Shown: positions 23,847-29,700 of the stretch, one piece after another | Layout: every line of letters starts with the position of its first letter | Position numbering within the stretch: position 1 is the first letter of the stretch | Source: Flavobacterium johnsoniae | Lineage (GTDB): Bacteria > Bacteroidota > Bacteroidia > Flavobacteriales > Flavobacteriaceae | Assembly (NCBI RefSeq): GCF_030388325.1 | Contig: NZ_CP103794.1 | Span: 496,001-560,000, forward strand | Direction of reading: 5' to 3' | Length of the DNA stretch: 64,000 bases | Notes under the pieces: model-generated | Databases searched by the model: none | What the model saw: the letters and a program-made list of their open reading frames with translations, nothing else | Told to the model about the DNA's origin: nothing | Translations under genes and position numbers: made by a program

Positions 23847-24929
23847 TTACGCGTTGAAAATTTTCTCTTGGTGTCCAATACTTTCTTGGTGAATTGCTTT
23901 GAACATTCTTAAAACGAATTCTTCAGTAAGACCTTTTTTCTCACCTTCTAAAATCATTTTTCCTAAGATTTCGTTCCAACGGTTGTTTTGAAGAATAGCA
24001 ACGTTTGCATCTTTTTTCACTTGACCAATTTCGTCAGCTACTTTCATACGTTTTCCTAACAACTCTAATAAGTTAGCATCCAAAACGTCGATGTTAGCTC
24101 TTAATTTAGTCATTTTTTGGCTGTACTCATCTGTAGTATCATCCGTTTTTCTGATAGTCAAATCTTTGATGATTTGTTTCAAATTATCTGGAGTCACTTG
24201 CTGAGCAGCATCTGACCAAGCGTTGTCTGGATCGATATGAGTTTCGATAATCATACCATCGTAGTTCAAATCTAAAGCTTCTTGAGTTACTTCAAAAATC
24301 ATTTTACGATCTCCAGTAATGTGAGATGGATCGATGATTAATGGTAAATCAGGGAATTTATTTTGCAATTCGATAGCAATCTGCCATTCTGGAATGTTTC
24401 TGTATTTTGTTTTTTCGTAAGTAGAGAAACCTCTGTGAATAACTCCTAATTTCTCAATTCCAGCCATATGTAAACGCTCAACACCACCAAGCCATAAAGC
24501 TAAATCTGGGTTTACTGGATTTTTAACCAAAACAATTTTATCAGTTCCTTTTAAAGTATCTGCAATCTCTTGAACTGCGAAAGGGTTTGCAGTTGTACGT
24601 GCACCAACCCATAAAACGTCGATATCGTATTCTAAAGCTAGTTTACAGTGAGCTGCTGTTGCAACTTCAGTTCCCATTAATAAACCAGTTTCAGCTTTTG
24701 CTTTTTGTAACCATTTTAATCCGATTTCTCCAATACCCTCAAATCCTCCTGGACGAGTTCTTGGTTTCCAGATTCCAGCTCTAAAAACGCTTACTTTTGA
24801 ATCTTTTAATTCGTGAGCGATTTTCAAAACCTGATCTTCAGTTTCTGCACTACATGGTCCAGCTATCACAAGTGGGTGATTTAAATTGAAATCTTCTAAC
24901 CACTTTCTCATTTCTTTCTTATTTTCCAT
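23847..24929 (-). CDS. Bifunctional 3-deoxy-7-phosphoheptulonate synthase / chorismate mutase (type II)
   Basis: This 360-residue fusion has residues 1-255 as a KDO8P-synthase-like DAHP synthase (HPLVIAGPCSAETEDQVL, FRAGIWKPRTRPGGFEGIG, IIDPSHITGDR, IETHIDPDNAWSDAAQQVTP). Residues 265-355 form an AroQ-type chorismate mutase (MTKLRANIDVLDANLLELLG, KRMKVADEIG). It performs the first step of the shikimate pathway and the chorismate-to-prephenate step. The mutase at the C-terminus is the Bacteroidota order, opposite to the Bacillus fusion. In this operon the mutase domain probably also confers feedback control by prephenate. It is the last gene of the attenuator-preceded operon, 13 bp after tyrA. 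Confidence 0.94.
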   Translation of the reverse strand: MENKKEMRKWLEDFNLNHPLVIAGPCSAETEDQVLKIAHELKDSKVSVFRAGIWKPRTRPGGFEGIGEIGLKWLQKAKAETGLLMGTEVATAAHCKLALEYDIDVLWVGARTTANPFAVQEIADTLKGTDKIVLVKNPVNPDLALWLGGVERLHMAGIEKLGVIHRGFSTYEKTKYRNIPEWQIAIELQNKFPDLPLIIDPSHITGDRKMIFEVTQEALDLNYDGMIIETHIDPDNAWSDAAQQVTPDNLKQIIKDLTIRKTDDTTDEYSQKMTKLRANIDVLDANLLELLGKRMKVADEIGQVKKDANVAILQNNRWNEILGKMILEGEKKGLTEEFVLRMFKAIHQESIGHQEKIFNA

Positions 24930-24942
24930 CTTAATTCTAATT

Positions 24943-25803
24943 TTACTTTTTAGTTGTTGTTAATCCGTTTAGTATTTCTTTTATTTTATTTGTGCTTTCC
25001 ATTTCTTCAAAAATGGCATTATAATCTTCTTCTTTCAACAAATCCCTAAATCGACTGAGATTTGAAATATAAGCTTCTAAAGTTTCTAGAACGTGTTCTT
25101 TATTTTGCTTAAAAATTGGCGTCCACATCGCTGGCGAACTTTTTGCCAAACGAACCGTACTTTCAAATCCACTTCCCGCCATATCAAAAATATCCTGTTC
25201 GTCTTTTTCTTTATTCATTACTGTTTTTCCGAGCATAAATGAACTAATGTGCGATAAATGCGAAACGTAAGCAATGTGTTTGTCGTGCGAAGTCGGATCC
25301 ATATATCGAATCCTCATTCCGATTGAAGTAAAAAGATTCAATGCTTTTTCCTGTAATTTAAAAGCCGTCTTTTCGACCTCACATATAATATTTGTTTTCC
25401 CTTGAAACAAACCTCTTATTGCTGCTGATGGCCCCGAAAACTCTGTTCCGGCAATTGGGTGCGTTGCAATAAAATTTCTTCTTTTTGGGTGATTGGCTAC
25501 TGCTTCGCAAATTGGTTTTTTAGTAGATCCCACTTCAAAAACAATTGTTTTATCTCCTACCGAATCCAAAACTTTAGGTAAAACTGTCAGCGCTACATCT
25601 ACTGGAACCGAAACGATTACAAAATCTGCTTTTTGTAAATCTTCAAAGTTTCCTGCTTCGTCAATAACTCCAAGATCAATTGCCTGTTGCAAATGTTGTT
25701 CGTTACTGTCGATTCCTAAAATAGTCGCATCAGGATAACGCCCTTTGATGTCTAACACCATCGAACCACCTATTAATCCTATTCCTATTACGTATACTTT
25801 CAT
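24943..25803 (-). CDS. tyrA: Prephenate dehydrogenase
   Basis: This 286-residue NAD-dependent enzyme converts prephenate to 4-hydroxyphenylpyruvate. It shows a Rossmann motif at the start (VYVIGIGLIGGSM), then VVSVPVDVALTVLP and FIATHPIAGTEFSGP. The SHLSHISSFMLG helix also fits the family. There is no fused mutase or ACT domain. It is the third gene of the Phe/Tyr operon. A short inverted repeat separates it from the aminotransferase gene. Confidence 0.93.
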   Translation of the reverse strand: MKVYVIGIGLIGGSMVLDIKGRYPDATILGIDSNEQHLQQAIDLGVIDEAGNFEDLQKADFVIVSVPVDVALTVLPKVLDSVGDKTIVFEVGSTKKPICEAVANHPKRRNFIATHPIAGTEFSGPSAAIRGLFQGKTNIICEVEKTAFKLQEKALNLFTSIGMRIRYMDPTSHDKHIAYVSHLSHISSFMLGKTVMNKEKDEQDIFDMAGSGFESTVRLAKSSPAMWTPIFKQNKEHVLETLEAYISNLSRFRDLLKEEDYNAIFEEMESTNKIKEILNGLTTTKK

Positions 25804-25897: not shown

Positions 25898-27043
25898 CTA
25901 AAATCGATCTATCGCTTCTTGCACTTTCTCTTCTTTCACACACAATGAGAATCTTATATACCCTTCGCCGTTGCTTCCAAAAATGGTTCCCGGTGTAATG
26001 AAAATATGTTTCTCATATAATATTTCGTCAATGAACTTTTCTGCTGATTCAATTCCTTCTGGCAATTTTGCCCAAACGAAAAGTCCAACTCCTTCTTTAT
26101 ATACTTTACAGTTTAACTTTTCGGCTAATTTCTCCGTTAATTCTCTACGGCGTCTGTAAATTTTGTTTTGATCTTCGAACCAAGATTTATCACATTTTAA
26201 AGCTGCAATTGCACCTTTCTGAATTCCGTAGAACATCCCGCTGTCCATGTTGCTTTTTACTTTTAGAACTGCATCGATAATTTCAGGGTTTCCTAAAACC
26301 ATCCCAACTCTCCAGCCGGCCATGTTGAAAGTTTTACTTAATGAATTTAATTCTAAAGCCACTTCTTTTGCTCCTTCAACCTGCAACAAACTCATTGGAT
26401 TATCATTCAAAACAAAACTGTACGGATTGTCGTTGATCAATAATATATTGTGTTTTTTAGCAAAAGCCACCAATTTTTCAAATAACGCTAAACTTCCTCT
26501 CGCTCCTGTCGGCATGTGCGGATATCCCAGCCACATAATTTTTACTTTCGAAAGGTCTAGTTTTTCTAAAGCTTCGAAATCTGGTTCCCATCCGTTTTCT
26601 TCTTTCAAATCATAATAAACTGGAACTGCCTGAACCAAATTGGTTACCGAAGTATAAGTTGGATAACCTGGATTTGGAATTAAAACGTGATCGCCTTCAT
26701 TTAAAAAAGCCAGCGAAATATGCATAATTCCTTCTTTCGAACCCATAAGAGGTAAAATCTCATTATTTGGATTCACTTCAACACCAAACTGATTACGATA
26801 AAAATCTGCCATCGCCTGCCTCATTTCTGGTAATCCCTGATAGCTTTGATAACCATGCCCGTTTTCGTCTTGAATTGCTGCAGCGACTGCTTCAATTACT
26901 GCTTTTGACGGACTCAAATCAGGGCTTCCAATTCCCATATTGATGATCGATTTTCCTTCAGACATCAACTGACGAACTTCTCTCAATTTTGATGAGAAGT
27001 AGTATTCTTCAACTGTGTCTAATCGTTTTGCTGTTGTAATCAT
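25898..27043 (-). CDS. PLP-dependent aminotransferase (class I/II), probable aromatic aminotransferase
   Basis: This 381-residue fold-type I aminotransferase shows GIGSPDLSPSK near the N-terminus, HVLIPNPGYPTYTSV, LINDNPYSFVLND (Asp or Asn contacts), LNSLSKTFNMAGWRVGMVLG (Schiff-base Lys in SLSK) and RFSLCVKEE with the substrate-binding Arg. The family includes LL-diaminopimelate, methionine and aromatic aminotransferases. Position between prephenate dehydratase and dehydrogenase makes transamination of phenylpyruvate and hydroxyphenylpyruvate the likely role. That is inferred from context, not from sequence. Confidence 0.85.
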   Translation of the reverse strand: MITTAKRLDTVEEYYFSSKLREVRQLMSEGKSIINMGIGSPDLSPSKAVIEAVAAAIQDENGHGYQSYQGLPEMRQAMADFYRNQFGVEVNPNNEILPLMGSKEGIMHISLAFLNEGDHVLIPNPGYPTYTSVTNLVQAVPVYYDLKEENGWEPDFEALEKLDLSKVKIMWLGYPHMPTGARGSLALFEKLVAFAKKHNILLINDNPYSFVLNDNPMSLLQVEGAKEVALELNSLSKTFNMAGWRVGMVLGNPEIIDAVLKVKSNMDSGMFYGIQKGAIAALKCDKSWFEDQNKIYRRRRELTEKLAEKLNCKVYKEGVGLFVWAKLPEGIESAEKFIDEILYEKHIFITPGTIFGSNGEGYIRFSLCVKEEKVQEAIDRF

Positions 27044-27131: not shown

Positions 27132-27971
27132 TTAAGAATCACTTAAAGGTTTTGTATTTTTATATTCTCCCAATACTTTAAAATATTCTGCCATGATATT
27201 TAATAAGGCTTTGGCTTTTGCAAAATCTTCGTATTTCTCAAATGTTACATCTACAAAGAATGAATATTTCCAAGGCGTTTCAATTTTTGGAAGCGACTGG
27301 ATTTTTGTCAAATTCAGTTTGCAGTCGCTCATTACATTTAACACCGCTGCTAAGCTTCCTCTTTTATGATCTAATTCAAATTTGATTGACGCTCTGTTGA
27401 TTTCGCTTTCTGGCAAAAATGAATTTTGCTTTTTAATGATTACGAAACGCGTCATATTATTTTTAATTGTTTGAATCGATGATGCAATAATATCTAACTC
27501 GTACATTTCAGAAGCCGTTACACTTGCAATTGCAGCAATTCCGGTTAATTGTTTTTCCTGAATTCTTCTTGCAGTTTCAGCTGTATCTTTATCCTCAATC
27601 AATTTGATATTTGGATATTGTTTCAGGAAATCCATGCATTGTAAAAGTGCCATTGGGTGCGAATGAACTTCTTTTATATCTTCAATTTTCTGACCTTTTA
27701 AAGCCATTAAATTTTGCTGAATGTTTAAATAATGCTCTCCAATTATGTGTAAATTATTCTTGTCAATCAAAGCATAATTTGGAATAATTGGCCCTGCAAT
27801 TGAATTTTCGATCGCCATAACAGCCTGATCAGATTTTCCGGCAATAAGGCTGTCGATCAATTCTTCGAAAGACAAACACTCATCAATATCCACATTTTCA
27901 GAGAAATACTCTTTCACAACCTGATGATGAAATGATCCTTTAATACCTTGTATTGCAATTTTCGTTGTCAT
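27132..27971 (-). CDS. pheA: Prephenate dehydratase
   Basis: This 279-residue monofunctional enzyme converts prephenate to phenylpyruvate. The catalytic domain contains AIQGIKGSFHHQVVKEYF, AIENSIAGPI and the hallmark NNMTRFVIIKK with the Thr-Arg-Phe triad. The C-terminal ACT domain contains HKRGSLAAVLNVMSDCKLNL and TKIQSLP, which bind phenylalanine for feedback inhibition. It is the first structural gene of the operon. Its ATG lies only 6 bp after the U-run of the attenuator terminator. The enzyme is thus likely controlled both by Phe allostery and by attenuation. Confidence 0.95.
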   Translation of the reverse strand: MTTKIAIQGIKGSFHHQVVKEYFSENVDIDECLSFEELIDSLIAGKSDQAVMAIENSIAGPIIPNYALIDKNNLHIIGEHYLNIQQNLMALKGQKIEDIKEVHSHPMALLQCMDFLKQYPNIKLIEDKDTAETARRIQEKQLTGIAAIASVTASEMYELDIIASSIQTIKNNMTRFVIIKKQNSFLPESEINRASIKFELDHKRGSLAAVLNVMSDCKLNLTKIQSLPKIETPWKYSFFVDVTFEKYEDFAKAKALLNIMAEYFKVLGEYKNTKPLSDS

Positions 27972-27977
27972 ATAGTC

Positions 27978-28006
27978 AAAAAAAAATCCTGATTTGCATC
28001 AGGATT
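27978..28006 (-). terminator. Attenuator terminator of the Phe/Tyr operon
   Basis: On the minus strand, AATCCTGAT (28006-27998) pairs perfectly with ATCAGGATT (27993-27985) around a GCAA tetraloop, followed by nine consecutive T. It is a textbook intrinsic terminator placed 6 bp before the pheA start codon, where a constitutive terminator would block the operon. It must therefore be conditional. Confidence 0.9.
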
Positions 28007-28063
28007 GTATATTAGTTTTATTTGTCTTAAATTTTATCTCAAATAACCATAGCACAATCCTGA
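27999..28063 (-). promoter_or_regulatory. Antiterminator of the Phe leader
   Basis: TCAGGATTGT (28063-28054), inside the last third of the leader peptide gene, is a perfect 10-bp complement of ACAATCCTGA (28008-27999). The latter overlaps the 5' arm of the terminator. Pairing of these two would prevent the terminator forming. Just upstream, CTTCT and AGAAG (28078-28074 and 28068-28064) can form a small hairpin over the last Phe codons, a possible third switch element. Confidence 0.8.
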
Positions 28064-28119
28064 CTTCTACTAAAGAAGAAATAAAAATTGTTGCTAAAAT
28101 AAAAACGGTTAGTTGCCAT
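28039..28119 (-). CDS. Phe-rich leader peptide of the aromatic operon (26 aa)
   Basis: An ATG at 28119 opens a 26-codon frame ending at TGA 28041-28039. It starts MATNRFYFSNNFYFFFSR, with Phe at positions 6, 8, 12, 14, 15 and 16 and Tyr at 7 and 13. The start lies in A-rich context (ACAAACAAAATG), as Bacteroidota starts usually do. The cluster FYFFF precedes the antiterminator arm by about 9 nt. A ribosome stalled by lack of charged tRNA-Phe would leave that arm free, while a ribosome reaching the stop codon would occupy or disturb it. This is the logic of pheL in enteric bacteria. I consider it a real regulatory ORF rather than a chance frame. Confidence 0.85.
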   Translation of the reverse strand: MATNRFYFSNNFYFFFSRSQDCAMVI

Positions 28120-28148
28120 TTTGTTTGTGTTATTTTGTAAATTCTTTG

Positions 28149-28178
28149 CGAATGTATAAATTATTTTTAGTGCACCAA
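28149..28178 (-). promoter_or_regulatory. Putative promoter of the Phe leader and operon
   Basis: On the minus strand a TTG (28178-28176) and TACATTCG (28156-28149), one mismatch from TAnnTTTG, are 19 bp apart, the preferred spacing in Bacteroidota. Transcription would begin about 20-25 bp before the leader ATG. Confidence 0.65.
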
Positions 28179-28345: not shown

Positions 28346-28408
28346 TAAAACGTTGTGGTCATTTGATTCTAATTTCTCGAATTAAAGTCATGCTTTTCTT
28401 CCTTTCTT

Positions 28409-28510
28409 GTCATTCCGAGGAACGAGGAATCTTCACAAGTAGCTCGACAAAGATTGGAAATATACTGTACGGAATCACTCCGCGGAGATTCCTCGTTCCT
28501 CGGAATGACA
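28409..28510. repeat. Inverted pair of the 'cattccgaggaacgaggaatct' repeat
   Basis: Arms 28409-28432 and 28487-28510 are reverse complements over about 24 bp. Together with the leader promoter and the copy at 28321 they account for the 414-bp stretch between the leader peptide and the DUF1501 gene. No further gene is supported there. Confidence 0.78.
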
Positions 28511-28533
28511 AGATTGCGGATACCACTCAAAGC

Positions 28534-29700
28534 TTATGAAAACAACCCCGAAACTGGTTTATTCATAATCCCGATTTTAGCATAATCAAAATTCATTTTT
28601 TCTTTTAATAAAGACGTATAAACACTTCTAAAATCGATTTGGTATTTTAAATCGCCATTATCTAAGTCAGCTAGATTTGGATTATTTCCTAAAATTGTTC
28701 CTTTGTTATTTCCTCCAATTATAAACATTGGTGCTGCGGTTCCGTGATCGGTTCCGTTGCCGTTATCTTTTACTCTTCTTCCAAATTCTGAGAAAACTAC
28801 GACTGTGACATTCTGTAATAATTGAGATTCTTTTAAATCAGAATAAAAACTATATAACGCATCATTTAAATCGGTTAATTTTCTTTCATGAATCGAAAGC
28901 TGATTGTCATGCGTATCAAATCCGTTTAAAGATGTGTAATATACTTTTGAGTTTAAATTTCCTTTTATCAGTCTCGCAATCCATTCTAAATTTTTCGATA
29001 ATTCTGTTTTTGGATAACTGATTTCTGTTTTAGATTTTGCCAAAGCTTTCTGGATTTCATCTGAACCTTCGGTAACGGAATTGGCAATTTTTCGAACAAA
29101 ATCTAAATGCGGATTTTTAGATAAAGTAACATTTTCTTCTTTTGCTTTTACTTTAAATCGATTCGGATCTTTTACAGTTATGAAATTAGGCTCCACACCT
29201 TTTAAAGCCAAATTATCAATTGAATCTAAATTTATTCCTGCAGTCGCTTGATGTCCGTTGCATTGCAAATCCAGAAATCTTCCGAGCCAGCCTTCGTTTA
29301 TATATTTATTAGAATCGGTTGCCGTCTGCCAAATTTCCTGACTTCTAAAATGGGAACGAATAGGCTCTGGATAACCGACATTTTGAATTATTGTTAAATC
29401 TCCGTTTTGCTGCATTTGAGCAAAATCTTTTAACGAAGGATGAAATGCCATTCCTTTATTCTTCCCAACAACAACATCTTTATTTAAAGCGATTTTCGTT
29501 CGTAAATCATAATATAATGGATCGTCGTATGGAATAAAAGTATTCAATCCGTCGTTTCCGCCATTCAATTGCACAAAAACAATACATTGCTCTCCCACAA
29601 CCAAATTGCTCTGAGAACCGAAAGCGTGTAAAAAATCAGGAAGCACAAGCAATCCGCCTGTGAAAGTTCCTGTCAATGTTAGAAAATTTCTTCTGTTCAT
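28534..29700 (-). CDS. DUF1501 domain protein with Tat-like signal
   Basis: This 388-residue protein begins MNRRNFLTLTGTFTGGLLVLP, which contains a twin-arginine motif (RRNFL) and suggests export of a folded, perhaps metal-binding protein. Typical DUF1501 features follow: FVQLNGGNDGLNTFIPYDDP, VGYPEPIRSHFRSQEIWQTA, FDTHDNQ, and VFSEFGRRVKDNGNGTDHGT with conserved acidic and His residues of a sulfatase/alkaline phosphatase-like fold. It is always found beside DUF1800 proteins and is here 12 bp downstream of one. Biochemical role is not established. Confidence 0.88.
   Translation of the reverse strand: MNRRNFLTLTGTFTGGLLVLPDFLHAFGSQSNLVVGEQCIVFVQLNGGNDGLNTFIPYDDPLYYDLRTKIALNKDVVVGKNKGMAFHPSLKDFAQMQQNGDLTIIQNVGYPEPIRSHFRSQEIWQTATDSNKYINEGWLGRFLDLQCNGHQATAGINLDSIDNLALKGVEPNFITVKDPNRFKVKAKEENVTLSKNPHLDFVRKIANSVTEGSDEIQKALAKSKTEISYPKTELSKNLEWIARLIKGNLNSKVYYTSLNGFDTHDNQLSIHERKLTDLNDALYSFYSDLKESQLLQNVTVVVFSEFGRRVKDNGNGTDHGTAAPMFIIGGNNKGTILGNNPNLADLDNGDLKYQIDFRSVYTSLLKEKMNFDYAKIGIMNKPVSGLFS

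Follow-up and report, generated by a model that had tools for sequence, protein, structure and literature searches.

The minus strand ahead of pheA in the window (the whole 64,000-nucleotide stretch of Flavobacterium johnsoniae DNA analysed here) carries what we regard with high confidence as a trpL/pheL-type attenuator of transcription, mediated by the ribosome, through which the levels of charged tRNA-Phe and tRNA-Tyr govern the pheA-aminotransferase-tyrA-DAHPS/CM operon. A ribosome stalled on its Phe/Tyr-rich leader very probably switches the biosynthetic genes on. The anatomy of the element, its conservation, its covariation and the register between its codons and its RNA structure are established below from sequence and modelling, and the coordinates of its parts are listed in Table 1.

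Table 1. Parts of the pheA attenuator and genes of the operon that follows it (window coordinates)
Feature	Coordinates	Strand	Details and basis
Promoter-like site	28149..28178	-	TTG 28178-28176, 19 bp, then TACATTCG 28156-28149; sequence
Leader peptide ORF MATNRFYFSNNFYFFFSRSQDCAMVI, including stop codon	28039..28119	-	A at -3; conserved in relatives
Control codons Phe6 to Phe16, FYFSNNFYFFF	28072..28104	-	Sequence; modelled switch point is the last Phe/Tyr codon
Segment 1, 5' arm of 1:2 hairpin, within Phe codons	28077..28095	-	Folding
3' arm of 1:2 hairpin, overlaps segment 2	28051..28068	-	Folding
Segment 2, antiterminator strand GTCAGGATTGTG	28053..28064	-	Partner 28009-27998
Segment 3 TACAATCCTGAT	27998..28009	-	Partner segment 2 (antiterminator) or, from 28006, segment 4 (terminator)
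Intrinsic terminator AATCCTGAT-GCAA-ATCAGGATT plus T run	27978..28006	-	Segment 4 is 27993-27985
pheA, prephenate dehydratase	27132..27971	-	PF00800, 1.2e-57
Class I/II aminotransferase	25898..27043	-	PF00155
tyrA, prephenate dehydrogenase	24943..25803	-	NF006307, 399 bits (cut-off 295)
DAHP synthase fused to chorismate mutase	23847..24929	-	PF00793 and PF01817

The promoter, leader, antiterminator arm and terminator that an earlier note on this DNA had described were all recovered at these positions. The promoter-like site resembles the Bacteroidota TANNTTTG promoter, and no Shine-Dalgarno sequence is seen before the leader ORF. That ORF has the 26 codons claimed for it, six of them Phe and two Tyr, including the consecutive FYFFF, and precedes the pheA to tyrA genes. 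The proposed 10-nt antiterminator arm and the 5' side of the terminator (TCAGGATTGT and ACAATCCTGA) are exact complements, and their pairing reaches 12 bp when the terminal G-U pairs are included. The terminator is a 9-bp hairpin closed by a GCAA loop, with nine T of which two belong to the stem, and the 6 bp GACTAT separates it from the pheA ATG (27971). A small hairpin had also been noted over the last Phe codons and proposed as a third switch state; the hairpin is there, as the top of a larger predicted one of 17 bp (28095-28077 with 28068-28051), and it reads as the classical segment 1:2 rather than as a third state. With this longer hairpin, which the note had missed, the layout is therefore 1:2 / 2:3 / 3:4 as in trpL and pheL. 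The 1:2 hairpin shares bases with the antiterminator strand, so the two compete.

The leader RNA folds with a z-score of -3.68, and none of 200 shuffled sequences was equally stable. The predicted fold of the free leader consists of the long 1:2 hairpin, in which the run of Phe codons pairs with the antiterminator-to-be strand, and the terminator; when the sequence before the last Phe codon is omitted, as if a ribosome covered it, the 12-bp antiterminator becomes the minimum-energy fold, which no longer contains the terminator. All four classical segments are therefore present. Of the 46 window genes with 120 or more codons that were tested, four are preceded by a terminator within 330 nt, and pheA is the only one that also has a Phe/Tyr-rich leader. 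Chance origin of the arrangement was considered and is ruled out by this comparison together with the shuffles of fold and (below) of conservation.

Translation of the leader, stalling, termination and regulation by Phe and Tyr, as we infer them from these features and from modelling, would proceed as follows. RNA polymerase would start about 25 nt upstream of the leader ATG, and a ribosome would initiate on the leader without the help of a Shine-Dalgarno sequence. When charged tRNA is plentiful, the ribosome would pass the Phe and Tyr codons and move onto segment 2, and the 3:4 terminator would form before pheA. When Phe or Tyr is short, it would stall within FYFSNNFYFFF, where it would cover segment 1 and leave segment 2 free; the free segment 2 would pair with segment 3, and transcription would go on. 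With no ribosome on the leader, 1:2 would form first and the terminator next.

The operon behind the attenuator makes both of these amino acids. The ACT domain match of PheA is weak (PF01842, 20.5 bits, below the Pfam cut-off of 27), and beyond the DAHPS-CM gene lie rsgA and then a D-aminoacyl-tRNA deacylase gene. Operon genes were sought in relatives by running tblastn with the window's proteins over stretches of about 6 kb at E up to 1e-5, a search that can miss distant genes. By this measure pheA, the aminotransferase gene, tyrA and DAHPS-CM occur together in all 12 family loci examined and in three of five further genus loci (L433 is without tyrA, and L429 without the aminotransferase gene and tyrA). 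Nine distant loci that bear the element (L407-L415, two of them recognized by eye only) have all four genes in six cases and pheA with DAHPS-CM in three, and among twelve element-free loci eight have pheA alone, three (L419, L424 and L425) have pheA-aminotransferase-tyrA, and at L420 no gene was detected. Upstream of the attenuator on the same strand the window has a DUF1501 gene (28534-29700), and a dispersed palindromic repeat with perfect inverted arms of 28 nt lies at 28405-28513; the stretch 28369-28540 has 79 matches on both strands of the genome, itself included.

Searches found PheA in 103 of 150 genomes of the genus, 186 of 199 of the family and, by its PF00800 domain, 172 of 198 of the phylum. 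The upstream regions examined came from 102 genus loci (all but the one in G069, which gave two partial matches), 68 family loci and 70 more distant loci, the last two samples combining loci that the search supplied with 40 each that were chosen for spread. All parts of the attenuator were called in 94 of the 102, 63 of the 68 and 11 of the 70, respectively, and in none of 504 dinucleotide shuffles of the genus and family upstream regions; a terminator plus a Phe/Tyr-rich short ORF is found at 174 of the 240 loci. The genus loci that were missed comprise two cut by a contig end (L054, L064), one with a misplaced gene start (L086), two in which leader and terminator are seen by eye with pairing below the threshold (L078, L082) and three diverged pheA genes that lack the element (L100-L102). 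Among the family misses the parts are visible by eye in L177, L179 and L199, L186 has none, and L187 has only the end of a terminator in the stretch covered. Leader, terminator and the exact strand AGGATTGT are all present in 79 of the best 80 of 256 named relatives, and the remaining one (L314) lacks only the exact string; 77 of these 80 bear the genus name Flavobacterium, and their PheA proteins are 92-100% identical. The leader is present in the genome named F. johnsoniae (L297). The switch is conserved across the family.

The distant loci with a full call carry four family labels (f3, f4, f8 and f27), and the parts can be seen by eye in two further distant loci that were not called, L211 (which has no ATG start) and L216 (label f18). 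Other families and classes were assigned by kinship labels, and the other class is represented by two loci (L228, and L216 by eye). No terminator was found in the 30 best-scoring phylum loci (L131-L160), nor in L149 and L201, which belong to another family of the same order. Several individual loci may be recorded here. The distant leader of L211 has Phe/Tyr codons, seems to lack an ATG and may start at another codon. At L205, L209 and L214 (label f8) the attenuator is missing and pheA closely follows another gene that is aroA-like by eye; L215, also f8, has the attenuator. The three diverged genus genes (L100-L102, also L416-L418) encode PheA proteins that are 41-47% identical, with no further operon gene detected nearby and no attenuator.

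The earlier note had proposed the upstream regions of pheA in relatives as a check, and there the Phe codons are conserved and the alternative stems covary. In a genus alignment of 22 sequences 100% of the terminator cells are paired, with three compensated pairs, and 79% of the antiterminator cells are paired, while slid controls reach at most 58% and 47%, respectively. For example, in one column of this alignment the antiterminator pair G-C becomes A-U as the terminator pair C-G becomes U-A. The covariation score of the antiterminator was matched by none of 500 shuffles; four of its 2:3 pairs are changed on both sides, a count reached by 79 of the 500. Among 147 distinct leaders, in a comparison for which pairing belonged to the selection criteria, the shared strand has A or G at one position and C or U at two others, and the partners mostly change to match; pairing with segment 2 at two outer positions is limited to 81 and 62 of the 147. 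In 122 of 142 distinct leaders the native 1:2 hairpin exceeds the mean stability of synonymous resamples, and its covariation is weak, with little seen.

Is the antiterminator placed where a ribosome on the Phe/Tyr codons could control it? Of 153 distinct leaders, selected without demanding an antiterminator, 148 have one in the 28 nt directly after the control codons, and control stretches contain one in 0 of 90 cases (spacer) and 2 of 153 (before the ATG). Segment-2 windows pair with terminators swapped in from other loci in 698 of 1523 combinations because many clades share the motif. Between the last Phe/Tyr codon and segment 2, 168 loci show a median distance of 13 nt (5-95% range 10-16 nt), a spacing that fits a ribosome footprint. 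Gaps of three bases in the leader alignment preserve the reading frame, and frame 0 is the richest in Phe/Tyr in 148 of the 153 leaders, a figure that is partly due to selection as the ORFs were chosen on their Phe/Tyr content. The 153 distinct leaders contain 839 Phe and 501 Tyr codons; the element had been called a phenylalanine attenuator, but its leaders have Tyr codons beside those for Phe, ahead of an operon that contains tyrA in addition to pheA.

In 138 of the 153 distinct leaders the motif TANNTTNG lies in the 80 nt that precede the ATG, against 490 of 3060 shuffled upstream sequences. There is an A at -3 in 118 of the 153 and a Shine-Dalgarno-like string in three. An A at -3 is reported to promote initiation in F. 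johnsoniae (PMC6847099), and the A at -3 and the scarcity of Shine-Dalgarno-like strings in these leaders fit initiation in that species.

The response of the RNA to a ribosome was modelled in these 153 leaders. At full-length equilibrium the terminator prevails in 144, even when a ribosome sits stalled on the last control codon, so the model needs cotranscriptional kinetics. A full switch (on, off, on) at equilibrium is found in 8 of the 153; the window's leader does switch at equilibrium with stalls 1 to 8 codons before its last Phe. It could be argued from this dominance in most relatives, and from the strength of the terminator by itself, that a fixed terminator trims upstream read-through or yields a small RNA and that Phe and Tyr regulate nothing. 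We regard this as very improbable, as a promoter-like site stands directly ahead of the leader and the antiterminator is kept in register with the Phe/Tyr codons in the 148 leaders noted above; a plain terminator needs no antiterminator, so its retention counts against a fixed one.

Since so few leaders switch fully at equilibrium, RNA extending only as far as the terminator loop was modelled next, with a ribosome that masks from -15 to +12 around its A-site; the 5' arm of the terminator was scored as sequestered when upstream RNA held it at P>0.5. The model predicts that a stall at the control codons frees segment 2 and that passage beyond them covers it. The arm is sequestered in 150-152 of the 153 leaders when the A-site is 1 to 8 codons before the last Phe/Tyr codon (151 at one codon before), in 139 at that codon, in 57 one codon beyond and in 27 two codons beyond. 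In the window's leader sequestration falls from 0.98 at Phe15 to 0.04 at Ser17, a matter of two codons, and moving the footprint edge by 3 nt (three footprints were modelled for this leader) shifts the switch by one codon. A ribosome at the leader stop codon still leaves the arm above 0.5 in 70 of the 153 leaders (0.81 in the window's leader). Without a ribosome the arm is sequestered at this stage in 131 leaders, and with a ribosome at codon 3 in 147; the stall exceeds the ribosome-free state in 63 of the 153 and the stop-codon state in 131. As the arm is held without a ribosome too, the no-translation state depends on 1:2 forming first.

That the modelled antiterminator can form in ribosome-free, truncated RNA is also what would be seen with a riboswitch, T-box or RNA-binding-protein attenuator, in which a real terminator would answer to an RNA or protein sensor and the short ORF would play no part; a terminator with an alternative pairing would look alike in either case. 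We give such a sensor very little chance. No Rfam family (T-box, riboswitch or other cis-regulator) has a match at gathering score in the window, the leaders have the frame-0 Phe/Tyr richness (in part a product of selection) and the frame-preserving gaps described above, and the change of fold follows the position of the ribosome, to within about two codons of the last Phe/Tyr codon. Least probable of all is that the leader is a small protein acting in trans, for which the conservation of the peptide and the trans role reported for a Sinorhizobium trp leader peptide (PMC7298713) could be cited, as outside the Phe/Tyr run the peptide ends vary widely from locus to locus (RDCAMVI, GLVLCYVKK, NEALYV, TGLL, or a stop codon directly behind the run) and the RNA pairing is kept. 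Attenuation by a translating ribosome after the pheL logic, which the earlier note had favoured, is the best reading, and the conserved Phe codons and the covarying alternative stems support it.

The Phe/Tyr attenuator is not isolated in its genome. A leader MISIQLHHHHLHYCSQAMC (HHHH) with a terminator precedes hisG (L330:1180-1239), a leader MRTLLNNSWWWNNLRQTS (WWW) with a terminator precedes trpE (L339:1282-1338), and an Ile/Val-rich leader MQISIIITSVVVVNVIHTSASGML with a terminator precedes one of the two ilvD genes (L372:1289-1363), so attenuation looks like a general habit in this genome; no leader was called before the second ilvD (L359). All 15 hisG upstream regions processed have a leader with 4-5 His and a terminator, with a pairing score of 14 or more in 14 of them. 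Leaders were called in 4 of 7 trpE regions, with low pairing scores of 9.5-11 (by eye, the pairing partner there spans the terminator loop and 3' arm), and in 8 of 15 ilvD regions, with scores of 8.5-13; the trpE and ilvD cases rest mainly on leader plus terminator. At the thrA loci the homoserine dehydrogenase domain is too far from the gene start for a leader call. A second Phe attenuator in the genome was sought and rejected: model R1 gives one hit at 136 bits, and the next, at 45 bits, matches the terminator half only. Of the seven next R1 loci scanned, six are without a Phe/Tyr-rich short ORF around their middle, and a 43-residue frame in the seventh (L441) was judged to be chance.

Some attenuators were reportedly predicted in Bacteroidetes/Chlorobi by Vitreschak in 2004. 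In F. psychrophilum, according to a 2021 study, conserved structured 5' elements lie upstream of pheA and hisG and occur in other Flavobacteriaceae genera without an Rfam match; the study also sees strong indications of leader-peptide attenuation ahead of amino-acid operons (PMC9723704). The pheA element there concerns the same gene in the same genus, and section 19 of that account gives neither sequence anatomy nor mechanism for it (PMC9723704). Long Bacteroides 5' UTRs are described as containing short ORFs reminiscent of leader peptides (PMC7366714). The statement in the earlier note that ribosome-mediated attenuation is far less documented in Bacteroidota needs correction, as the F. psychrophilum report already documents the element in part for Flavobacteriaceae (PMC9723704), and given these reports the present element is no discovery of attenuation in the phylum. 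Our literature search, to which subscription journals were mostly closed, found the pheA element mentioned only in PMC9723704. What is new here is the exact anatomy, the ribosome register, the combination of Phe and Tyr codons and the occurrence in further families of the phylum.

That a ribosome can trail RNA polymerase closely enough to decide its fate has its classic proof in leader-peptide attenuation. Such attenuation was long documented mainly in Proteobacteria (PMC2965389), and Flavobacteriaceae ribosomes rarely use Shine-Dalgarno sequences (PMC8710568). It seems fairly probable that the Phe+Tyr attenuator is an old control device that Bacteroidota have widely kept, in several of their families and probably beyond a single class, among bacteria whose ribosomes rarely use Shine-Dalgarno sequences, and that it is one of a set of leader-peptide attenuators (Phe/Tyr, His, Trp and Ile/Val). 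If this phylum-wide reading is true, close coupling of transcription and translation at leaders would be a general property of Bacteroidota. The deeply conserved set of switches in Flavobacteriaceae would offer a natural assay for coupling and for Shine-Dalgarno-independent initiation in the phylum. Aromatic amino-acid synthesis gains from it an annotated control point, and Rfam gains material for a family that it lacks.

Mechanistically this is a textbook switch, of a well-known kind. The enterobacterial pheL-pheA system (Rfam RF01859, Phe_leader) has a leader with Phe codons, alternative hairpins and a terminator before pheA, and all of these are common to it and the element described here, which does not reach the RF01859 cut-off (19 bits against 55, E 0.92). 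Unlike the enterobacterial system, the present one has Phe and Tyr codons together and no Shine-Dalgarno sequence, and its pheA, which lacks a chorismate mutase fusion, is the first gene of an operon that includes tyrA and DAHPS-CM. With the trpL/hisL/ilvL class it shares the logic that is common to all of them, and the sensed amino acids differ.
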